A DNA stretch of 47,497 nucleotides from Phycisphaerales bacterium (GTDB taxonomy: Bacteria > Planctomycetota > Phycisphaerae > SM23-33), in contig JABGPZ010000065.1 in assembly GCA_018644725.1 (NCBI GenBank), positions 1-47,497 of the forward strand, given 5' to 3'. A program made the translations under genes and the position numbers. This document shows positions 17,042 to 29,705 of the stretch, in pieces. The notes below the pieces were generated by a model. The model made no database searches, was not told where the DNA came from, and saw only the letters and a list, made by a program, of their open reading frames with translations. Each line of letters opens with the position of its first letter. The stretch's first letter is position 1.

Positions 17042-18310
17042 ATGATCGGACAACTCACAACACGAGTGAGGCTGGTTGGACTCGCCGCGATGCTGTTGGC
17101 GGGCCCTGCTTTGGCGGGGGTACTCAAGCCCGTCCCTCCAGGCAAAACGACGCCCGTTCCGCCGCGAATGCGAAGCATCCCGACGAAACCCGCGCCTGAA
17201 GGTTCCGGCCTGACGTGGGCCAAGGCGCAGGTGTCCAAGATCGACAATTTGTATGTTGCCACCGATGCTGCGACGGCCGACGCGCCGCGGCCGACGTTGC
17301 TGAAAGTTGCGATTGGCAAGCCTGATTTCGCCAAAGCAATGTCCGTGCCGCTGACGCTCAAGGGAAAAAAACTACGCACCTCTCGCGGCAAAAAAACGGC
17401 GACCTCTCTATGGCAAGGGTCGGCCCGCATTGCTGTGCCGCAAACGATCGACGGGGAGTCTATCACGACGACCCTTTTCGTGAATTATTCGGAACGCGGA
17501 ACCCAGAAGCCGAGCCTCTGGCTGGGGACTCTAACCACGCTGCAAGGCAAGGTTCTCGTCAAGGGCGAGGCTTGCACGATTCACGTGTATGATTCCAACG
17601 GAGACCTGAAGCTCTCCGGTACCGATCGGGTGGTGTTGATCAAGGGGACGGCCAAGATCCCGCTCTCTCCTCGCGGCCTTTCGCAAATTGGGAATTCGTT
17701 CTACAAGACTCTCTATACCGCCAAGACCAATGACGTGTCCATCGAGGCCTACAAGGGCAAAACGGGCATCGTCAAATCGCCCCTTCCCGCATTTCAATAT
17801 CGCCTGCAGTCCAAGGCCGTGGGGACGCTGGTTCTCTCTGGCAAGGCCGACACGCCGCTGACCGTTCCGGCGGGAGAGTATCAGGTCCAAGTCTATGGCC
17901 TGATCCTGAATGACAAGGGCATGGGGTATTCCGGCGCCACCAGCAAAAAGATCAAGGTTCCCGCTGGCGCAACGACGACTCTGCCAACACCGAGCACCTT
18001 CACGGCACTTTTCCAGATCTCTCTGGCAAAGGGCAGCGTGCGATTCAAGATCAAAATGAGCGATAGCTTGGGTGGCCGCAGTCTTCGACTGACGAAAAAC
18101 GGCAAGAAATGCCCGCCCGCCTTTGAGGTGGTGGATTCTGGAAATAAAGTAATCTACTCCAACAAGTTTGAGTATGGCTGAGGCGGCACTTGCTCGCACA
18201 CGTGGCGTGTGCCCAACGAATTGACCGGTACCTTTACGATTCGCTTGAAGGACTTCGAGTCCAAGACGGTGAAGATTCTCTACCCCAAAAAGACGTTTAC
18301 CCTCAAATAG
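17042..18310 (+). CDS. Novel secreted selenoprotein, paralog 1 (Sec380)
   Basis: A 422-aa protein read through TGA at 18179-18181 as Sec380; a naive call stops at 18181. The signal peptide is MIGQLTTRVRLVGLAAMLLA and onward to GPALA. The domain begins with the family motif GLTWAKA, contains an EF-hand-like loop DSNGDLKLSGTD (184-195) and ends in a beta-rich region. Around Sec: EYG-U-GGTC-SHTWRVP, giving a U-x3-C redox-type motif. Exactly 42 codons follow to a TAG, then a terminator. Support for Sec: the same 42-codon extension in three paralogs, a SECIS-type hairpin, and selC/selA/selB/selD nearby. ATG 17042 has AGAAAGGA upstream. It matches no selenoprotein family that I recognise; an extracytoplasmic thiol or selenol redox role is inference. 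Confidence 0.88.
18182..18218 (+). promoter_or_regulatory. SECIS element of selenoprotein 1
   Basis: The hairpin starts 15 nt after the TGA: stem GCACAC (18196-18201), loop GUGGC (18202-18206), stem GUGUGC (18207-18212). The distance fits bacterial SECIS elements, in which SelB binds an apical loop shortly downstream of UGA. It lies inside the coding sequence. Confidence 0.8.
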
Positions 18311-18333
18311 GGACGTCCCATTAAGATCGTATC

Positions 18334-18368
18334 ACCGGCTGAGGCAGTTTGCCTTGGCCGGTTTTTTT
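18334..18368 (+). terminator. Terminator after selenoprotein 1
   Basis: ACCGGC (18334-18339) pairs with GCCGGT (18357-18362), with an inner AGGC/GCCT pairing, followed by a T-run. It lies after the second stop (18310), not after the TGA. Confidence 0.85.
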
Positions 18369-18522
18369 ATGCAGAGAGGCGGGGCGGGAAAACAAAAATT
18401 GCGAAAAAGAGAGGCCGAAAGTGGCTCCAAGGCGTTACACTTAGTAGGCGACTCGCGGTTGGTGTGTGCCCATGGCCGAGAATTTCGGCCGGGACAGATC
18501 GGCGGCGAGAGCGTTGACATCA

Positions 18523-18570
18523 CCATAAAACGGATCGAATTCGTACACTTATTGCTTCCAGAAAGGAGCA
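18523..18570 (+). repeat. 48-bp leader repeat, copy 1
   Basis: The 48 bp ending in the ribosome binding site of selenoprotein 2 recur at 20015-20062 before selenoprotein 3, with two differences. It includes a possible TACACT -10 box (18544-18549) and the TTCCAGAAAGGA segment also found before selenoprotein 1. A TTGACA lies at 18514-18519 but is not kept in copy 2. Confidence 0.7.
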
Positions 18571-18575
18571 ACCAG

Positions 18576-19826
18576 ATGATTAGACAACTCTCAGGGAGGG
18601 TTGGGCTGGCATGTCTCGTTGCGTTATTTGCGGTGGAGCCACTGTTGGCAGGCGAACTCAAGCCTGTAAACAGGGGCATCGAAGCCAGTAACGTCTATCC
18701 GAGAATCGCCCCCCTCAAACCCGCCCCCAAAGACGCAGGCCTGACTTGGGCCAAGGCGATGATTGGCACTCTAAGCAAGAGCAGTAAGACGAAAGTCGCT
18801 CTCGATGCTGCCACTGCCGATGCGAAGATCCCCAGCGTGGTGAAAATCACAGTGGGCGACAAAACGACACCCATTCCGCTGGCCTTTAAGGTGGTAACCT
18901 ACACCTCCCGCGGCAAGGCCGGCTCTTACCAGTATGGGTATGGATCGGCAATTGTCACCGAAACGATCCAGGGCAAGGCGGTTCCCATGTCCTATATCGT
19001 GAGCTGCTATCTTCTTGCAGGCAAGGCTCCGAGGGTGGAGATCGCCCGGAGAGTGCGCATGGAGACCAAGGTTCAATTTGGCGACGAGGCCGGAACAATA
19101 CATTTCCTGGACACCGATGGCAACTTCAAGCTGTCCAGGCACGAGAGTCTCGATGCGAGCGTGGGCAAAACCACCGTGCAGATCGTGCCCAATGCTCCTG
19201 CGAACATTGGCGGGACACTGTACCATGTGAAGTTTAACGAGAAAACCAATGTCGCGACCGTTAAGGCCTATGAAGGAGAGCAAGGCAAAGTTGCGTCGAA
19301 CTTGTCGGCGTACAGCTACGTTCTCGCGTCCAAGACTCTCGGCACGCATCTGGTGACGAATGAAACAGGAACGATGACCCTGCCTGCTGGCGAATACAAG
19401 ATCAACCGCTACCGCGTCACGCCGGAGAAATCGGAACTGGCGATTGTAGGCTATGGAGCCAAGTCCGTGACGGTTGTTGCCGATAAAACCACGACGCTTC
19501 CCGTACCCGAAACCCTCACCGCAACGTTGTCGGCGAGCCGCTACAAGAGCAGGGTCAGGATCGGCCTGAATATGACGATCTCCATCGGTGGCCGGGGCAT
19601 TCAGCTTGTGAAGGACAATGCCTCTTACAGGCCGACGTTTGAAATCGTGGATTCGGAGAACAAAGTGGTCTACACCAACACTCTGGAGTATGGCTGAGGC
19701 GGCACCTGCTCGCGCACATGGCGTGCGCCCGAAGGACAGACCGGTACATTCACGCTCCGACTCAAGGCAATGGACACGGGTGCGATGAAGGTAAACGCGA
19801 AAGAGATAACCTTCACGCTGAAATAA
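18576..19826 (+). CDS. Novel secreted selenoprotein, paralog 2 (Sec374)
   Basis: A 416-aa protein read through TGA at 19695-19697. Signal peptide MIRQLSGRVGLACLVALFA and onward, cleaved after about LLAG. It shares with its paralogs GLTWAKA, the EF-hand-like DTDGNFKLSRHE (179-190), the GEYKI segment and the C-terminal EIVDSENKVVYTNTLEYG before Sec. Around Sec: U-GGTC-SRTWRAP, that is U-x3-C. Exactly 42 codons follow to TAA, then a terminator. ATG 18576 has AAAGGAG upstream. It is most similar to paralog 3, indicating a recent tandem duplication. Function unknown; an exported selenol protein with a Ca-loop-like motif. Confidence 0.88.
19698..19734 (+). promoter_or_regulatory. SECIS element of selenoprotein 2
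   Basis: Stem GCGCAC (19712-19717), loop AUGGC (19718-19722), stem GUGCGC (19723-19728), again starting 15 nt after TGA. Compared with paralogs 1 and 4 the third stem pair changes from A-U to G-C, a compensated change although the encoded residues differ (S-R-T-W-R-A against S-H-T-W-R-V). Confidence 0.82.
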
Positions 19827-19852
19827 CCCACGGATCCCGTTTTATGGAACCC

Positions 19853-19886
19853 GCTGGCGCGATTCAATTCGCGCCAGCTTTTTTTT
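19853..19886 (+). terminator. Terminator after selenoprotein 2
   Basis: A perfect 10-bp stem, GCTGGCGCGA with TCGCGCCAGC, and a 6-nt loop, followed by eight T. It lies 26 nt after the TAA that ends the read-through product. Confidence 0.9.
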
Positions 19887-20014
19887 GCCTGGGCAGAAAA
19901 AGGAGAGAATCCAGATGCCGCGCCCGGCATTATATTTGTATATGCTTTGCGGTCGGGGTTTGCCTGGTGTACACTGTTGCTTCGGGCTCCTGTTGTGAGG
20001 AGCGTTTTGGCATA

Positions 20015-20062
20015 CCATAAAACGGATCGAATCCGTACACCTATTGCTTCCAGAAAGGAGCA
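20015..20062 (+). repeat. 48-bp leader repeat, copy 2
   Basis: The second copy of the repeat at 18523-18570, ending in the ribosome binding site of selenoprotein 3. Two positions differ. Confidence 0.7.
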
Positions 20063-20067
20063 TGCAG

Positions 20068-21315
20068 ATGACTAGACAACTCTCAAGGAGGGTTGGGCTG
20101 GCATGTCTCGTTGCGCTGTTTGCGGCGGGGCCATTGTTGGCAGGCGAACTCAAGCCTGTGGACAAGGGCACCGAAGCCGTCGGCAACTATTCGAGATATG
20201 TCAATCTCTCCCCCGCCCCCAAAGACGCCGGCCTGACTTGGTCCAAGGCGATGGTCGGCACCCTCGGCAAGAGCAAGATAAAAGTCGCCCTCGATGCCGC
20301 CACCGCCGATGCCGAGATCCCCAGTGTGACGAAAATCACAGTGGGAGACAAAACCGTTTCCATTCCGGTGACCTTTACGGACAGGTCGTATGTTTCTCGT
20401 GGCAAGACCTTCACATACAAGAAAGGCTCTGGATCGAAAATGGTTTCCGAAACGATTCAGGGCAAGGCGGTTCCCGTGGCCTATGTGGTGAACTGTTATC
20501 TCTCCAAGGGCGAAACTCCGGACCTCGACATCGCCCGGTGCGTGAGCATGGAGGCCAAGGTTCAATTTGGTGACCAGGCCGGGACGGTACACTTTGTGGA
20601 TGCGAACTGCAATTTCAAGCTGTCTCGGCATGAGAGCATGAAAGCAAGTGTAGGCAAAACCAGCGTTGAGATTGTGCCCAACAGGCCTGCCAACATTGCC
20701 GGGAAACTGTTCCGCGTGAACTTTGATGCGAAAACCAATATCGTGACCGCCAAGGCATACGAAGGAGAGCAAGGCAAGGTTACGTCGAAATTGTTGAAGT
20801 ATAGCTACATTCTTGCGTCCAAGACTCTTGGCACACATTGGGTGACGGAGAAAACTGGAACGATGGCCCTGCCTGCTGGCGAATACAAGATAAGCCAATA
20901 TACCCTCACGGTGGACAAGTCCGGGCTGATCGTTGAAGGCTATGATGCCACGCCCATGACGGTTGCTGCCAACAAAATCACGATGCTCCCCATGCCCGAA
21001 TCCATCACCGCAACGCTGTCGGCGAAGCTTCGCAAGGGCTCGGTTACGATCAGTCTGAAAATGACCGATTCGATCGGTGGCCAAGGCGTTGAGTTTGTCA
21101 AGAACAACGATTATGTCAATCTATCGTTCGAAGTCGTGGATTCGGAGAACAAAGTTGTCTACACCAATAGCCTGGAGTATGGCTGAAGCGGTTCCAGTTC
21201 GCGCACATGGCGTGCGCCCAAGGAACTGACCGGTACATTCACGCTCCGACTCAAGGCAATGGACACGGGTACGCTGAAGGTGAACGCGAAAGAGACAACC
21301 TTCACGCTGAAATAA
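20068..21315 (+). CDS. Novel secreted selenoprotein, paralog 3 (Sec373, downstream Cys lost)
   Basis: A 415-aa protein read through TGA at 21184-21186. Signal peptide MTRQLSRRVGLACLVALFA and onward. The sequence tracks paralog 2 throughout. Two departures stand out. The residue four after Sec is Ser instead of Cys (U-SGSS), so the U-x3-C pair is gone. The EF-hand-like loop is degenerate (DANCNFKLSRHE, 178-189, Cys at the usual Gly position). The 42-codon extension to TAA, the SECIS hairpin and the terminator are intact, so it looks functional, perhaps with changed chemistry. ATG 20068 is chosen by alignment with paralog 2; ATG 20062 is too close to the ribosome binding site. Confidence 0.85.
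21187..21228 (+). promoter_or_regulatory. SECIS element of selenoprotein 3
   Basis: Stem GCGCAC (21201-21206), loop AUGGC (21207-21211), stem GUGCGC (21212-21217). Here a second, outer helix also forms: CAGUUC (21195-21200) with GAACUG (21223-21228), leaving CCAAG unpaired on one side. Confidence 0.82.
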
Positions 21316-21341
21316 CCCACGGATCCCGTTTTATGGAACCC

Positions 21342-21373
21342 GCTGGCGCGATTCAATTCGCGCCAGCTTTTTT
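21342..21373 (+). terminator. Terminator after selenoprotein 3
   Basis: The same 10-bp stem as after selenoprotein 2 (GCTGGCGCGA with TCGCGCCAGC), followed by six T. It is part of the duplicated unit. Confidence 0.9.
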
Positions 21374-21460
21374 ATGTCGTCGTAAATTCTCGAAACAAAT
21401 TGCTGCCGAAGTGGTTATACTTTGTAGTCGCAGGCGGAGAGTCTGCAGAAAGGAACGATG

Positions 21461-22744
21461 ATGAATTCATCCAAATGCCATTGGGCGCTGGGGATGCTGG
21501 CGGTCTTGGCCGTCGGGGCGTGTCTCGAAGCGAGTGAGCTTCGGCCGGTGAAATTCGGCAAGCACTTCCCGAAATTAGCATTCGAGCCCGTCCAAGGGTT
21601 TGCGGCCGCTCGCAAGACCATGGGCTTGACCTGGTCCAAGGCGATCGTGGCCAAGTCCGGGCGGAGCTATATTGCGCTTGATGCCGACAAAGCCGATGCG
21701 CAATTTCCCTCGACGCTGAAGATCGTCACGGGATTTGTCCCCGCCTTTGCCAAGGGCGTGACGATCCCGCTGAAGTTCGTGAAGATGGACGTCAAAACTC
21801 TAGACCGCAAAGGAGCCACCACGACGATTCAGGTTGACACGGCCATGATCGCTCCGATGGCGGTTTCTGTTCGCGTCGGTACCAAAACCGTTGAACAGAT
21901 GATCGCCGGGACCGTGCAAGTGTACAAAGGCCGGCCCGTTGTGAATCTGATTATCGCTTCGCGCATGGCCGCGGTCGCGACGGTGGCTGGCAAGAACTAC
22001 GCGCTGCTGGCGTATGACACCAATGGCGACATGAAGATTTCCGACAAAGAACTCGTCGAGCTGTACGACCGCAAAACCCGCACGCCCGTGCCGCTTAACA
22101 GCCTGTTCAAGCTGGGCGAAACCTGGGTCACGTTGAAATATGACGCGGCGAGCAGTTCGGTCACGACGGTGGAATTCAAAGGCAAGGAAGGCACGATTGT
22201 CTCCTCGGCCGACATCGCCCACCTGTCGCTGATGAGCAAAGAGGCCGGGCGCTTCGAAATTTCCGGCAAGGCCGGCACGAAAATCCCTGCCCCCGCAATG
22301 GCGTACAACATTGGCCAGTTCAATCTGATCTTGAACCCCAAATCGGGCGCAGGCTATCAAGGCGCCGTGCCGGACAAATTGTCGCTGAGCGTGGCTGAAG
22401 GCAAAGAGACCACTCTTCCGCTGCCCAAGACGTTGATTTCGACCTTCGCAATTAGCCAGGGCTCCGGCACGGTCCGCTTCAGCGTCGCGCTTGCCGACGA
22501 CGCTGGGTCGCGCAATGTGACGCTCACGAAATTCGGCAAAAAGACGCCGCCGGAGATCGAGGTCCTGGACAAGGCCGGCAAGGTCGTTCACACGGGCCGA
22601 CTGGAATATGGTTGAGGCGGCACCTGCTCGCACACGTGGCGTGTGCCCAAGACCCTCAAAGGCGACTTTTCGCTTCGACTCAAAGACTACGTCATCGACC
22701 CCGTCAAGGTGGCTTACAAGAAAAACACATTTACAGTGAAATAG
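21461..22744 (+). CDS. Novel secreted selenoprotein, paralog 4 (Sec385)
   Basis: A 427-aa protein read through TGA at 22613-22615. It has a signal peptide and then the family pattern: GLTWSKA, EF-hand-like DTNGDMKISDKE (186-197), IEVLDKAGKVVHTGRLEYG, then U-GGTC-SHTWRVP and 42 codons to TAG. It is the most diverged member of the tandem array, so conservation across the TGA is informative. Its likely promoter has TATACT at 21416-21421 with no clear -35 box. ATG 21461 gives better spacing to AAAGGA than ATG 21458. Function unknown. Confidence 0.87.
22616..22652 (+). promoter_or_regulatory. SECIS element of selenoprotein 4
   Basis: Stem GCACAC (22630-22635), loop GUGGC (22636-22640), stem GUGUGC (22641-22646), starting 15 nt after TGA. 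The sequence is identical to that of paralog 1 although the surrounding coding sequence has diverged. Confidence 0.82.
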
Positions 22745-22998: not shown

Positions 22999-24294
22999 AT
23001 GAAGACACCCAAAGAAACGACTCGCCGACGGCTGATGTCGGTTGTGCTGGGCGGAGTGATGGTCTTGACCGTCCTCGGCTTTTCGTGTCCTGCAAGTGGA
23101 GGCTGATGCCCTCCAGGCGGGGGCCAAGGTGGCTCCATTAAAGTAATCATTCGACCGGTTTCATTCAGTGGCAAAATGCGCTTGATGGACTGGACGTATC
23201 ACAAGGGACAGTACTACATCCAACTTCTCCAGACGGACGGCAGGTTTGCCGGCAAGCTGGAAACGGTCAAGACGACTCCGGGTCAGATCAAGCTGATTGC
23301 GGATACGAAGCTTTATACCTTGCTGGACATCACATTTTCTTCGTTGGGCGGAAAGAATTCACTTCGCTCTTCGATGATCAACCAGCTACACCTTTCGTGC
23401 AGGGCAAAACCCGGGCCATACGCAAACCCGTTCCTTACGCGCGCCAAGGAAGGATCAAGCGGGACCGAAAAATTGATCCTTCAGGAGATCAACAAGAAGA
23501 CTCCGGTGAGGATGAAAGTTCCGGGCAAAGACACCGCGGGACAAGTCTTCTCATTCCGCGGACTCAAAACGGCAAAAAGGGATGGTGTTACTTCGCTGTG
23601 GATTCGTGTCGGGCTCGATGGGATCAAATCCGGCAAGAGCTGGACGATGCGCCTTCCGCGTACGAATTACAAGAAGGGGACCGACAAGGACCGCGACCAG
23701 TATGCCACCAAAGGCAAATCGCACAGCAAAAGGGATCTTCTGTTTGCGAAAAGCTTGAAACCCGGTGATACGATCTATGTGGAATACGCAGGCGCCATCA
23801 GCACCGCTGGTGTGGTCTATCGTATGACGACGTTTAAACCGGCAAGCTTCAAAGTTCCGTGTGAGATTCTCAGCAGTAGAGAGACCACGCTTCTCGAGAA
23901 GACGACGCTGATTTCTAAGGTGAAGATTGCGGGCCTGGGCTCTGCGCTGACGATGTACGTTCGCCCGAAGGACTCTGGTGTTTTCCCCGTCCAGGGCGCG
24001 ATGGACTTTGGCCAGCTGATCAAAGGGGTCGACTTGATGAAAAAGGGTGACACTCTTTCCTATAGTCGTCTCGGCGGGAAACTGTGGATCAATACCGTTG
24101 GCGGTGACAAGAAGGCGCCGCCCAAGAAAAAAGCGGGGCCAAAGAAGGGTCCCAAGAAGGGGCCAAAGAAGCCGCCCAAGAAAAAGGAACCTGCTGGGGG
24201 GGACCAGCCCGCGACGGCCCTCAACGAGAAGGGGGAACTGGTGCTGGAGCCGGTAGAGAACGAAGAGACAGAGAACGAATTGGAGCTGGAATAA
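22999..24294 (+). CDS. Exported selenoprotein with vicinal Sec-Cys (Sec36)
   Basis: A 431-aa protein if TGA at 23104-23106 is read as Sec36. The N-terminus has TRRRLM and a hydrophobic stretch (VVLGGVMVLTVLGFSC), resembling a Tat signal. It is directly followed by PASGG-U-C-PPGGG, so Sec and Cys are adjacent at the mature N-terminus. The body (about 60-370) is soluble and has no family that I recognise; the C-terminus is a Lys/Pro-rich tract then an acidic tail. Without read-through the upstream part would be a 35-codon orphan with a good ribosome site (AAGGAG) and signal peptide, and the rest would start without one at ATG 23176. The two parts are in the same frame with no other stop. Function unknown; a metal- or redox-active selenol is inference. 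Confidence 0.78.
23107..23133 (+). promoter_or_regulatory. Candidate SECIS of the Sec-Cys selenoprotein
   Basis: GCCCUC (23108-23113) can pair with GGGGGC (23119-23124) around a CAGGC loop, whose GGC end matches the loops of the other four. It starts only 1 nt after TGA, closer than usual. A longer alternative pairs 23108-23110 with 23131-23133, with an inner U-G and C-G, placing a GG-containing loop further downstream. Confidence 0.45.
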
Positions 24295-24375: not shown

Positions 24376-26019
24376 CTAGCAACATCCGCTGTCGGAGCAA
24401 CATCCGCCCGAGGGCGCGGCGGATTTGGCGAGGGCCTGTTTTTGTTCGAGGTAGAACATGCGGACCACGGCCCCGCCGATGGCGGTTGCCAGCCAGGCGG
24501 CTTCGTCAAGCTGGGCATCGGTCAGGCCGAGGTCTTTTGCGCGTTTGTAGTGGTGCGCGAAGCACGGCGCGCAGCGGCCTTGGACGACGAGGGCGAAGGT
24601 GATGAGTTCTTTGGTTTTCGCATCAATGGCACCATCGGCCGTGGCAGAGGCCATCAGCGCGGCAAAGGCATCGAGGCTGGCTGAGGTGGTAGAACTCGAG
24701 CAGCAGGATGGCTCGGCCGGGGCATCGGCGCAGCAATCGCCTGTGGCGGGAGCGGGTTCTTCCGAGCAGCAGCATGGCGAGGAGACGGGGTCGGCGTCGT
24801 CGGCCGGGCGGGCCTGGCGCAGATGGATCGCGCCGTGTTCACCGTCGAGGATGCGCCCGATGGTCCAGGCGGTTTGATTGCGCTCGGCGAGGGCGGCCGC
24901 GAGGGCGGGAAACTGTTCCTGCGAGACCGCGATCAACAGCCCGCCGGAGGTCTGCGCGTCGAAGCCGAGATATTTCTGCGCGTCGGATACGCCGTCTTCG
25001 ACCGTGAGGTCGTCACCGACATATTCCATATTCCGTTCGACGCCGCCGGGGACGACGTCTTCGGCAAATTCTTCCAATGCCATCGGCAGTGCGGGCAAGG
25101 CCTCTGCCCAGATTTCAGCCGACGCGCCCGACGCGCGCAGCATCGACGCGAGGTGTCCAAAGAGTCCAAAGCCTGTCACGTCGGTACAGCCTGCCGCGCC
25201 CGCGTCGCGCATGGCTTCGGCGGCCAGGTTGTTCTGCTGGGCCATCGTCTCGACGGCTGCGGCGAACACGTCGTCATCGACCCGACCGATGCGATGGCTG
25301 AACCCCAGCACGCCCGTGCCGAGAGGCTTGGTCAGCACCAGCAGGTCGCCAGCCTTGGCGGCATTGTGTTCGGCGAGATCCTCGGGCGCAATGGTCCCCG
25401 TGATCGCAAAGCCGAGTTTGATTTCCGCGTCCTTGACCGAGTGCCCGCCGAGCAGTGCAACGTTTGACTCTTCGAAGACTTCGAGCGCGCCCGCGAGCAT
25501 TTCGTACATCGCGTCGCCGGGCAGCGTTTCGATCGGAAAGCCCACCACGCTGACGGCGGTTTTGGGCGTGCCGCCCATGGCATAAATGTCGCTGAGGCAG
25601 TTCGCCGCGCAGATCCGCCCGAATAGCCGCGGGTCGTCCACACAGGGGGTCATCACGTCGACGGTTTGGACGAGCAGCGTACCGTCATCGAGACGGTAGA
25701 CCCCCGCGTCGTCGCTCGCGGCCATGCCGACCACGACGTTGGGATTCTCGGGTTCTTTGAGCCGATGGAGAATTGCTTCGAGATCGGCGGCGGAAATTTT
25801 GCTCGCGCACCCTGCATTGTGAACCAGCGTGGTCAGCGGCGGAATATCGCCCTTGGGCGCGGGGCGCTCGCCCGCACAGGGGCAGTGCCCGTCGTTGCGA
25901 AAAATGTCGCACGGGCAGCCGCGCGAAGGGTCGCAAATGCAGTGGCCAAGCTTCAGTGAGCGGCGCATGATGCGTTTGCGTTTTTCCAGATCGTAGGAGC
26001 GTTTGGGGGTGTCGGTCAT
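24376..26019 (-). CDS. selD: Selenide, water dikinase fused to Cys-rich and AhpD-like domains (SelD)
   Basis: A 547-aa enzyme that makes selenophosphate from selenide and ATP. Three parts are visible. Residues 27-48 have three Cys pairs (HCIC, GCPC, HCPC) not found in E. coli SelD. The kinase core starts with LVHNAGCASKISAADL, giving catalytic Cys71 and Lys74; the active residue is Cys, not Sec. After a Cys-rich linker, residues about 445-530 form a carboxymuconolactone decarboxylase/AhpD-like domain with CAPC (483-486) and a nearby His, then a GGCC/SGCC tail. The extra parts suggest selenium delivery or reduction on the same chain (inference). Usual SelD length is about 350 aa. The start ATG overlaps the selB stop by 4 nt (ATGA). 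Confidence 0.93.
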   Translation of the reverse strand: MTDTPKRSYDLEKRKRIMRRSLKLGHCICDPSRGCPCDIFRNDGHCPCAGERPAPKGDIPPLTTLVHNAGCASKISAADLEAILHRLKEPENPNVVVGMAASDDAGVYRLDDGTLLVQTVDVMTPCVDDPRLFGRICAANCLSDIYAMGGTPKTAVSVVGFPIETLPGDAMYEMLAGALEVFEESNVALLGGHSVKDAEIKLGFAITGTIAPEDLAEHNAAKAGDLLVLTKPLGTGVLGFSHRIGRVDDDVFAAAVETMAQQNNLAAEAMRDAGAAGCTDVTGFGLFGHLASMLRASGASAEIWAEALPALPMALEEFAEDVVPGGVERNMEYVGDDLTVEDGVSDAQKYLGFDAQTSGGLLIAVSQEQFPALAAALAERNQTAWTIGRILDGEHGAIHLRQARPADDADPVSSPCCCSEEPAPATGDCCADAPAEPSCCSSSTTSASLDAFAALMASATADGAIDAKTKELITFALVVQGRCAPCFAHHYKRAKDLGLTDAQLDEAAWLATAIGGAVVRMFYLEQKQALAKSAAPSGGCCSDSGCC

Positions 26020-28019
26020 GAGGATTCCTCGTTGAGTATCGCGGCGGCTTTGGCGCCGATGCGGCGGAGATTGGCGTTGCGAACGGTCCATTTTTGCAGG
26101 TCGAGATAGTCCAGCAGCGGGACGGCGTATTTCCGGCTCACGCCGAGAGCGGTGCGAAATTCTACGGTTTCAAAGTGGGAGGCGTTTCGGAACAAGTCGA
26201 GCACGACGGGAATCGCGAGGGCCACGCCGTCGGTGTGCATGACGACTTTTTTGTCCAGGCGCACCGCCAGCGCCATGCGGATGAGGTTGTCCAGCGCACG
26301 GTCGATGGCGACCTGAGGCCGGCGGAGCGAATCGGCGATTTGGTCGGGTCGGGGGGGTGTCAGGGGAGCTTCGCGCAGAATCGCTTCCACGGCGGATTCG
26401 AGTTCGTTGAGTTTTGGCCCGGCGGAAAATCCGGGCGCGTGATAAACATTGCCGCGCAGTGCGATCTGTCCGGCCTCTTTCGCGCAGGCGATCACGCGCT
26501 GAGAAAGCACAGCATCGAGGGCGAGGGCTTCGGCGAGTTCGGCTTCGCTTGCGCCGGGCGAGTCGGGGTGGTCTTCGTGATAGCGCGCCAGCGCGTCGGC
26601 GGCCTGTTGGGCGAATTGGGAGAGAACGTCGCGATGGACCACGCGCCCTTCGCCAGCGTCCACGATTTCGTCGCGGCCCAGAAGCTCGGCCAAGATTTCT
26701 GCGCCGGCGGTTTCTGCCAGAGCGAGTTCGGAACGGATTTGTCCGGCGGTCATTGCCGCAGGGTGGGTTTGGAGATAGCACGCCACGAGCTTGGCCGGCG
26801 ATTCGTCGAGGACGGCCGCGAGTTTCGTAAGGCGATCCCGCAGATCCGCCTGGCGGCATTTTTGTTTGTGCCGGGAGACCGTCACCACACGCCCGCCGCC
26901 GAGAGTGGTCAGCATTCCGCCGTCTGGCCCGCGCAGAATGTAGCGCTCGCCGGGGATCACGGGCAGTTCGCTTTCGAGGCGAAGCTGGACGAATTGGCGC
27001 GCGCCCTGAGCGAGCGGGGCGGGGTCCTCGAGGAAGACCACTCGCGCATTGACGTGCGTCGTGCCGACGTGGAGCTGGACTTGCGTGTGCGTTTTGAGCG
27101 GCCTGGCCAGGCGCGGCAGCAATTCGAGATCGGCTTCGAAAAAGGTGGACGCTTCGACCTTGACGGCCGAGAGGAACGTGCCCTTGTCGAGCTGGTCGTG
27201 GCCCGACCCGGAGAGGTTCATCGCGACACATTGGCCGGAAAACGCTTCCGTCGCATCGCGGCCATAGACTTCCATCCCGCGCACGCGCACTTCGGCGCGG
27301 CCGGGGAACGCCCACAGAGTATCGCCGAGGGCGAGGCGTCCCGAGCGCGGAATGCCAGAGACCACCGTGCCGAATCCGTGAACGCCGAAGCGCCGTTCGA
27401 CCCACATGCCGAACACGCCGGCGGGGTTTCGGGGTTTGGCGCGCTGGACTTCTTCGTCGAGCGCGGTGCGGAACTCCCAGTAGCCCTCGCCGGAAATGTT
27501 GGACATCGGGCAGATGGCCTTGCCTTCGAGGAACGTGCCCTTGAGGAAATTTTGCACTTCCGCGACGACGTCTTCGCGGCGCTGGTCCGAGACGAGGTCG
27601 GTCTTCGTGAGAACGACCAGCCCGAAGCGCGTGCCCATCAGCCGAAGGATGTCGAGGTGTTCGTAGGTCTGGGGCATGATGCCGTCGTCGGCCGCGATCA
27701 CGAGCATCACCACGTCCACGCCCTGGGCGCCCGCGACCATGTTGCGGATGAAGCCGACGTGCCCGGGGACGTCAACGATGCCGACGATGTCGCCGTTGTC
27801 GAATTTGCACGGCGCAAAGCCGAGTTCAATCGTCAGCCCGCGCTGTTTTTCTTCGGCGAGGCGGTCGGTTTCGCAGCCGGTAATCATGCGCACCAGCGAG
27901 GTCTTGCCGTGGTCGACGTGCCCAGCCGTGCCGAGCATCACCGGGTGGCGCAGCGGCGTGGGGGCGGTTTCGCGCGGGCCGTCGCCGCAGGGCGAACAAG
28001 GTGAACCGCACTCGGTCAT
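26016..28019 (-). CDS. selB: Selenocysteine-specific elongation factor (SelB)
   Basis: A 667-aa GTPase that carries Sec-tRNA to UGA codons and binds SECIS hairpins. GTPase motifs: [13 protein letters not shown] (G1), DVPGHVGF (G3), TKTD (G4). EF-Tu-like domains 2 and 3 follow, then winged-helix repeats; the end ([20 protein letters not shown]) is the typical last SelB winged helix that contacts the SECIS. A short N-terminal extension carries three Cys ([14 protein letters not shown]). It overlaps selA and selD by 4 nt (ATGA) on both sides, so translation is coupled. Confidence 0.96.
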
Positions 28020-29443
28020 GCTTGGGCTCCGCCGGAAAGGACGCGCGCGAGGGCTTCGGCGATGCGGGACAGGTCGGGTTCGGTGACGCAGCGCATTTCG
28101 AAATAGATGCTGCCGTCGTGGAGGCGCGTGAAGACGTGTTCGCTGTCGAGGCGCAATCCGCGCGCGACATCATCGGCCGAGAGGCCCGCCGGTGGGGTCG
28201 CCGCAACGGCGATGCCTTTCATCGCTTCCATGGGCATCGTGCCCGAGCCGAGGAAGTTTTCACTCTCGACGGTTTCGAGTGTCCAGCCCGCCAGCAGCGG
28301 CGCAACGAGCTTGCTGAACGCGTCGGCGGTCTCGCGCAACTCGGCCATCGTCAGCGAAATCATGCGGTACAGCGGGTGGGTTTTGGCAAGCGCTTCGGGG
28401 TTGCGGAACAGGTGCAGTGTGCGCTCGAGGACCATCAGGCAGGTTTTGTCCACGCGTAGAACGCGGTAGAGCGGATGTTTGCGACAGCGGGCGATGGCGT
28501 CTTTGCTGCCGAGAAGCAGCCCGCCTTGGCCAGCGCCGATGAGTTTGTCCGTCGAGACCATCACGACATCCGCGCCGGTAGCGAGCGAGTGTTGCACGGT
28601 GGGCTCGTGGGGGATGCCGAAGTCGGCGAGGTCGACCAGTGCGCCCGCGCCGAGATCGTCGAGCACCAGCAGGTCGTTGTCGTGGGCGAGGGTGACGAGG
28701 TCGTCGAGGGAGACTTCCTTGTGGAAGCCGACGACGCGGTAGTTGCTCGGGTGGGCGCGAATGATCGCGGTGGTGTCTTCGGTGATGGCGTTTTGGTAGT
28801 CACGCAGGTGGACGCGATTGGTCGCGCCGATTTCGCGGAGCGTCACGCCCGAAAGCTCCATCACTTCCGGCAGGCGGAAGCTGCCGCCGATCTCGATGAG
28901 CTGGCCGCGCGAGACAATGCCTTCGCCGCCGCCCGCGAGTGCCATCAGCGCGAGCATCGTCGCGCCGGCGTTGTTGTTGACGACGAGGGCGGCTTCGGCG
29001 CCGGTGATTTCGCAGAGCAGGTCTTCCACGCGGAGGGAGCGCTCGGAGCGTTTGCCCGTTTCGCAATCGACCGCGAGGGTCACATAGCCGTCGAGCGCGC
29101 TGGAGATCGATTCGACCACGGCCGGGGCATAAACGCTGCGGCCGAGGGCGGTGTGCATGATGATGCCCGTGGCGTTGATCGCACGGTTGATGTTGGGCTC
29201 GGCACGCTGGGCAAACATTGCTTGCGTCGCGTCGACAACCCACGCCAGCAGGCCCGCTTCGACATCGCCATCGACACCGGGCGGGGTGAACGATTCGTCG
29301 AGCAGGTTCGCGCGCATCTCGTCGATGGCAGCGCGGATCAGCGCGACCAGGTCGTCGTGGCCAGCACAGGCGCGGGTGTCCGCCAAGGCGGGCGCGGCGA
29401 GTACGGCATCGACGCTGGGCAACAGTCGCAATGAATTTGACAT
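28016..29443 (-). CDS. selA: L-seryl-tRNA(Sec) selenium transferase (SelA)
   Basis: A 475-aa PLP enzyme that converts Ser-tRNA(Sec) to Sec-tRNA(Sec) using selenophosphate. Family blocks: [47 protein letters not shown], and the PLP lysine K300 in [12 protein letters not shown]. The length agrees with E. coli SelA (463 aa). ATG 29443 has GGAAGG about 8 nt upstream; the frame is open further upstream but that part would run into selC. The stop overlaps selB by 4 nt. Confidence 0.96.
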
Positions 29444-29465
29444 GGTACAGTCCTTCCGAAGGGCG

Positions 29466-29489
29466 CCGCCGCCGGAGATTCGGCGACGG
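29466..29489 (-). promoter_or_regulatory. GC-rich hairpin in the selA leader
   Basis: On the minus strand CCGTCGCCG and CGGCGGCGG form a 9-bp stem around AATCTC, between selC and the selA ribosome binding site. It could protect the mRNA end after selC processing or modulate selA translation. Its loop does not resemble the SECIS loops. Confidence 0.4.
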
Positions 29490-29515
29490 TCGCAAAGAGG
29501 GCCGCAAGTGCGGCA

Positions 29516-29609
29516 CGGAGGCGAATAGGAATCGAACCTACCAAGGACGCGTAAACGCCCTTCATTGGTTTTGAAGACCAAGGGCACCACCAGGTTACCA
29601 GGCGCCTCC
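29516..29609 (-). tRNA. selC: tRNA-Sec (anticodon UCA)
   Basis: A 94-nt tRNA on the minus strand. The acceptor stem is GGAGGCG with CGCCTCC. The anticodon stem-loop is TTGGT, CTTCAAA, ACCAA, giving anticodon TCA, which reads UGA. A long variable arm (AGGGCG with CGTCCT) is diagnostic of bacterial tRNA-Sec, and the T-arm is TAGG, TTCGATT, CCTA. The discriminator is G, as in known tRNA-Sec. CCA is not encoded. It lies 73 nt upstream of selA on the same strand. Confidence 0.95.
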
Positions 29610-29705
29610 GAATTTCTTACAATGCTCAAGTTGTCAAAGCCCCGCGAATGGGGCGAGTATTATACCAAACCCGATGCGAGAGTCAAAGGGTTGGCGAATT
29701 TTGGG

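Follow-up and report, generated by a model that had tools for sequence, protein, structure and literature searches.

Four tandem genes with an in-frame TGA

Does the TGA found inside each of four tandem genes end the protein, or is it read as selenocysteine (Sec, U)? The genes, 1 to 4, lie in a 47,497-nucleotide contig of a Phycisphaerales bacterium (JABGPZ010000065.1, assembly GCA_018644725.1), the whole of which we call the window. Standard open reading frame (ORF) calling terminates all four at the UGA. An earlier note had described them as new secreted selenoproteins, and this description is now well supported at the level of sequence, by homologs that keep the TGA, by a covarying hairpin downstream of it, and by the co-occurrence and physical linkage of the family with selA. 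That the UGA is read as Sec appears close to certain. In a wider sense, genes 1 to 4 very probably encode exported, Sec-decoded selenoproteins that are tandem members of a Sec-domain superfamily and may form an envelope redox module.

The four genes are paralogs on the forward strand, each with a single in-frame TGA directly after the sequence EYG. Read through, gene 1 (17042-18310) codes for 422 residues and stops at TAG, gene 2 (18576-19826) for 416 residues with a TAA stop, gene 3 (20068-21315) for 415 residues, also with TAA, and gene 4 (21458-22744) for 428 residues with TAG. The predicted Sec codons are at 18179-18181, 19695-19697, 21184-21186 and 22613-22615, and the tail that follows is of 42 codons in every case. 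The motif reads EYG-U-GGTCSHTWRVP in genes 1 and 4 and EYG-U-GGTCSRTWRAP in gene 2. Thus, a U-GGTC (Sec-x3-Cys) pair is present in three of the four proteins; gene 3, with U-SGSS (USGSS), keeps U and has lost the Cys at position +4, Cys(+4). The tails align without gaps, and the invariant residues include U380, G382, S385, T387, W388, R389, P391, the RLK triplet and the final FTxK. In the more distant paralog pairs, nonsynonymous changes per site in the tail were about half of the synonymous ones, and this constraint was seen in the coding frame but in neither shifted frame.

Genes 2 and 3 are near-copies, and the identity of the other genes to gene 1 is about 36-40%. Near-identical upstream and terminator sequences (around 18520-18575 and 20010-20067) are common to genes 2 and 3. 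The pair is consistent with a recent tandem duplication and with separate transcription units. Of the intrinsic terminators proposed earlier for all four genes, we found terminator-like hairpins with a T run, by pattern match only, after genes 1 (18334-18362), 2 (19853-19878) and 3 (21342-21367). The hydrophobic N-termini fit putative signal peptides, as judged by eye, and a model of the gene 1 product has a helix at residues 5-20. An EF-hand-like loop had also been proposed. The DxNGD loop is EF-hand-like by sequence alone: the Pfam EF-hand match in gene 4 (E=0.16) is under the curated cut-off, and the gene 1 model has strands around the loop instead of the flanking helices of a helix-loop-helix.

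The TGA and the tail are kept in a multi-phylum family

The four genes belong to a multi-phylum family with several architectures, which was beyond the view of the earlier note. With a profile of the four window proteins we detected the family in 22 of 100 genomes, a count that includes G000, and almost every match had a single TGA. When the homolog loci were read through, the motif was unchanged, and both the TGA and a conserved tail of about 40 residues were kept; homologs stopping at the TGA and showing no conservation past it, which had been named as the outcome that would speak against selenoproteins, were not what the search returned.

For a wider survey we used a profile of the Sec domain only (A3, 36 members). 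Since U was entered as Cys, this profile is unbiased toward TGA. It gave 134 matches in 42 of the 298 genomes of a class sample, 124 of them with exactly one TGA (the matches lacking a TGA were tallied by hand). Exactly one TGA was also found in 41 of 42 matches in a phylum sample, which shares two genomes with the class sample, and in 57 of 58 matches in a third sample. The latter comprised the 21 genomes that hold 22 loci whose titles are not planctomycete (Verrucomicrobiota, Hydrogenedentota, Sumerlaeota and others); these genomes were picked via a TGA pattern, which guarantees that the family is present but does not fix the TGA state of the remaining members. A single TGA is found at one and the same position in dozens of independent homologs, which is beyond chance.

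A search of a genome collection with the TGA-containing DNA pattern returned many records, with, among the matches listed, Planctomycetota (Phycisphaerae, Sedimentisphaerales, Pirellulales), Verrucomicrobiota, Lentisphaerae, Hydrogenedentota, Sumerlaeota/BRC1, Riflebacteria and a few more, the phyla being taken from record titles, which may err for metagenome-assembled genomes. In a few matches to this pattern (L090, L096, L113, L168, L171 and L193 among them) the domain is absent, and they look like chance. A peptide-pattern search of the same collection, derived from the window alignment, found no relatives.

The members differ mainly in what surrounds the Sec domain. Proteins of the window type have about 400 residues followed by a tail of 41-42; small proteins have 140-190 residues plus the tail; in a third type the tail is of about 75-120 residues, and several of these end in a hydrophobic stretch resembling a transmembrane (TM) anchor. 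Other members bear LamG, accessory LamG domains being matched in two relatives, and in a fifth type the tail reaches about 290 residues and has about seven TM helices. At L102, L106, L116, L163 and L178 a multi-TM member lies near a shorter-tailed member on the same strand. The neighbourhood of the two types suggests a functional pair. At L218 (G225:C175) the member is disrupted near the motif by a frameshift or a TAG, and is possibly a pseudogene or an assembly error. Taken together, the comparisons support the view that the window genes represent a local tandem expansion of a large multi-phylum Sec-domain superfamily whose predicted members are often inside or beside a sel operon.

A covarying hairpin follows the UGA

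As the motif is free of gaps, its nucleotides align directly, and we could combine RNAalifold with pair statistics to search for a selenocysteine insertion sequence (SECIS). A six-pair stem extends from pair 18-34 to pair 23-29 (UGA being nucleotides 1-3) and closes a loop of GUGGC or AUGGC. In the window it is found at 18196-18212 in gene 1 (GCACAC-GUGGC-GUGUGC), 19712-19728 in gene 2 (GCGCAC-AUGGC-GUGCGC), 21201-21217 in gene 3 and 22630-22646 in gene 4, all on the forward strand, and gene 2 shows a compensatory change from A-U to G-C relative to genes 1 and 4. Pairs 19-33, 20-32 and 22-30 covary. All six pairs form in 96% of 154 sequences, as compared to 72% (standard deviation 1.8%) under a null in which codons were permuted among sequences sharing the amino acid; none of 2,000 permutations reached the observed value. 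Moreover, the six pairs are formed by 218 of 238 U members and by only 1 of 11 non-U members.

With a 5-nt loop, 6 bp and a position 20 nt after the UGA, the hairpin is within the ranges of the published bacterial SECIS (bSECIS) model (loop 3-9 nt, stem 4-16 bp, spacing 16-37 nt), and the minimum free energy over 50 nt is at or below the threshold of that model, -7.5, in 154 of 154 sequences. The model also calls for G at loop position 1 or 2, and the loop starts with G in 112 of the 154. SelB, together with this hairpin 20 nt downstream, would recode the UGA as selenocysteine.

The family is linked to the selenocysteine machinery

The complete Sec machinery reported to be near the genes is indeed present, at 24376-29629, on the strand opposite to genes 1 to 4. 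It consists of SelD (24376-26091; Pfam AIRS, AIRS_C and CMD), the selenocysteine-specific elongation factor SelB (26016-28019), the selenocysteine synthase SelA (28016-29629; Pfam SelA, E=1.3e-121) and a tRNA-Sec with anticodon tca (29517-29609; Rfam RF01852, 71 bits, also found by ARAGORN). The selA gene ends in a TGA that overlaps the start of selB, and selB also ends in TGA; thus, TGA is a stop as well in this genome. Formate dehydrogenase alpha, the known selenoprotein that we looked for in the genome of the window, was not found.

SelA was found in 104 of the 298 genomes of the class sample and in 37 of the 42 that bear the family (odds ratio 21, Fisher p=1.7e-14; the p value is nominal, the genomes being related). 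Three family genomes without a SelA match carry TGA-bearing members; their completeness is 83-88%, and in each a tRNA-Sec scores above the Rfam cut-off. In the other two, 96-99% complete, the Sec position holds Cys, and a tRNA-Sec above the cut-off is absent. In the third sample SelA was found in 18 of 21 genomes. Within the class sample, 24 genomes have both on one contig, and in every one of them selA has a member at a distance of no more than 12 kb; in L061, L068 and L069 the order selA-selB-member-selD on a single strand forms an apparent operon. L043 likewise has a family member between selB and selD. It is the covarying hairpin, together with this co-occurrence and physical linkage, that argues for decoding of the UGA as Sec.

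Selenocysteine is rarely replaced by cysteine

Homologs with Cys at the TGA position, which the earlier note had suggested looking for, exist but are few. In a larger set of 251 aligned members, a set biased toward TGA, U is present in 239 and Cys in three only. All three lack Cys(+4), and two of them are from genomes with neither selA nor a tRNA-Sec above the cut-off. A C-x3-C form replacing U-x3-C was not found among the aligned members. Cys(+4) is present in 196 of 206 distinct U members, and most non-U members lack it. From these sequences, the family would seem almost never to swap Sec for Cys. For the question of why selenocysteine is retained, a domain that resists Cys replacement is a natural experiment.

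Predicted structure and possible role of the Sec domain

In an AlphaFold2 model of the gene 1 product (mean pLDDT, a per-residue confidence score, of 90), a beta-sandwich spans residues 316-422 and takes in both U380 and the tail. The model supports the idea that the 42-residue tail completes a C-terminal immunoglobulin (Ig)/macroglobulin-like beta-sandwich holding the motif EYG-U-GGTC-x2-[ST]W-R. Fold searches returned generic Ig, Fn3 and macroglobulin (MG)-type matches alone, the best, VIA (Z 7.0), being flagged as perhaps a common arrangement. Models of the multi-TM relatives had an Ig-like domain and about seven helices, with no clear fold relative; a DsbD-like or SoxYZ relationship was not established, the fold searches returning generic matches.

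The Sec-x3-Cys pair, export and the general chemistry of selenoproteins lead us to propose a redox role for the Sec domain in the envelope, for which we put the chances at about even. Sec and Cys(+4) may form a reversible selenenylsulfide in the cell envelope, so that the domain would act as a thiol/selenol redox module, and the membrane-bound relatives may pass electrons to and from a partner in the membrane. A more speculative idea, possible but less likely, is that many bacteria, across several phyla, have this Sec-obligate exported domain, with hardly any cysteine versions, as their main client for selenium, and that it is what maintains their Sec machinery; the soluble, anchored and multi-TM versions would together make up a redox relay, based on selenols, that spans the envelope.

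Several observations weigh against the selenoprotein and redox reading as a whole. The codon-permutation null used for the hairpin ignores the relatedness of the sequences, and the loop starts with A in 42 of the 154 sequences, genes 2 and 3 included, which is outside the published G rule. Of 206 distinct U members, 10 have no Cys(+4), and gene 3 is among the U members of this kind; a U-C bond is thus not universal. Finally, Foldseek found no close solved relative of the Ig fold (no E below 0.001), so that a function cannot be transferred from the structure.

Alternative readings

The main functional rival accepts that the proteins are selenoproteins, and has the Sec-x3-Cys pair bind a soft metal or metalloid, or store or traffic selenium, instead of taking part in thiol redox chemistry. 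Members inside or beside the sel operon, the near absence of a Cys form keeping the site, as a selenium-specific role would have it, and the lack of a recognised catalytic fold all speak for this possibility. Yet conservation in the motif is limited to a single Sec and a single Cys, no other Cys or His being conserved there, and some members lack even that Cys. We regard such a role as a serious but minority possibility.

Much less probable is that a tRNA(UCA) charged with Cys reads the UGA as cysteine. The conserved position would be explained equally well if the residue had a Cys-like role, but tRNA-Sec, SelA, SelB and SelD adjoin the genes, the presence of the family tracks selA, and a SECIS-like hairpin is under selection. 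Even less credit can be given to the UGA as an ordinary stop, as standard ORF calling has it, with the tail an untranslated relic or the product of low-level readthrough: the tail is conserved as protein in several phyla with its second stop intact, is under frame-specific constraint and contributes strands to the modelled domain, and members exist with multi-TM tails of 290 residues. A sequencing or assembly error, conceivable in that many records are metagenome assemblies, is refuted by the identical TGA in many unrelated assemblies and in the single-contig genome G087.

Relation to known families

The strand arrangement of residues 318-422 is similar (Z about 6) to that of the macroglobulin MG2 domain (PF01835) and the beta-sandwiches of complement C3/C5, but the MG2 matches of the window proteins are weak (E 0.001-0.07, under the curated cut-off) and point to a common fold only. 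We know of no report of Sec in macroglobulin MG2 or complement C3/C5 domains. In DsbD, an N-terminal Ig-like redox domain precedes a membrane domain of several helices. The membrane-bound relatives share this layout, which is only a lead: there is no Pfam match to DsbD, DsbD is absent among the fold matches listed, and the relatives have about seven TM helices with no conserved intramembrane Cys pair noted. The DUF1573 domain is also Ig-like. A DUF1573 domain selenoprotein (PF07610) has a UGC motif (PMC13188914, Table 1); both are Sec-containing domains, but the family studied here has UGGTC and no Pfam match to PF07610.

The earlier note recognised no selenoprotein family of this architecture, and our searches bear this out. 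The window proteins matched no Pfam or NCBIfam family above the curated cut-off, 47 aligned members had no NCBIfam match above cut-off, and a sequence search of the PDB gave no usable match. A May 2026 review with a table of 119 selenoprotein families (PMC13188914) lists no U-GGTC or U-x3-C motif of this kind. A literature search on the motif letters returned unrelated work only, prior mention in Haft and Tolstoy (2025) or Deng et al. (2026) not being excluded. In all probability, then, this is a new and apparently undescribed selenoprotein family.

In-frame UGA, hairpin geometry and genomic Sec machinery are as in the bacterial selenoproteins with a bSECIS; the motif and the near absence of a Cys form set the family apart (PMC13188914). 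Nearly all selenoenzymes have Cys homologs, and more abundant ones (PMC13188914), and the authors of deep-Sep noted that their method may filter out or miss families that have no Cys homologs (PMC12013277). Plausibly, the family has been overlooked because its Cys homologs are almost absent and detection filters on them. Selenoprotein detection leans largely on Cys homologs; a Sec-only family would stay hidden from it, and the annotation would show its genes as truncated. Bacteria that use Sec but have no known selenoprotein were noted in an earlier survey (PMC5029168), and for some of these the family offers a directly testable answer.

Other features of the window

A fifth, unrelated ORF on the forward strand (22999-24294) has an in-frame TGA near its N-terminus (23104-23106; SCPASGG-U-CPPGGG) and would code for 431 residues if read through; no homolog was found in 100 relatives, and Sec coding there is unsupported. 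The SelD of the window has a Cys-rich N-terminal extension, and a Cys-rich tail is also seen on its C-terminal CMD (AhpD-like) domain. A SelD beginning in a similar way is encoded downstream of the family member in L021 and L071.

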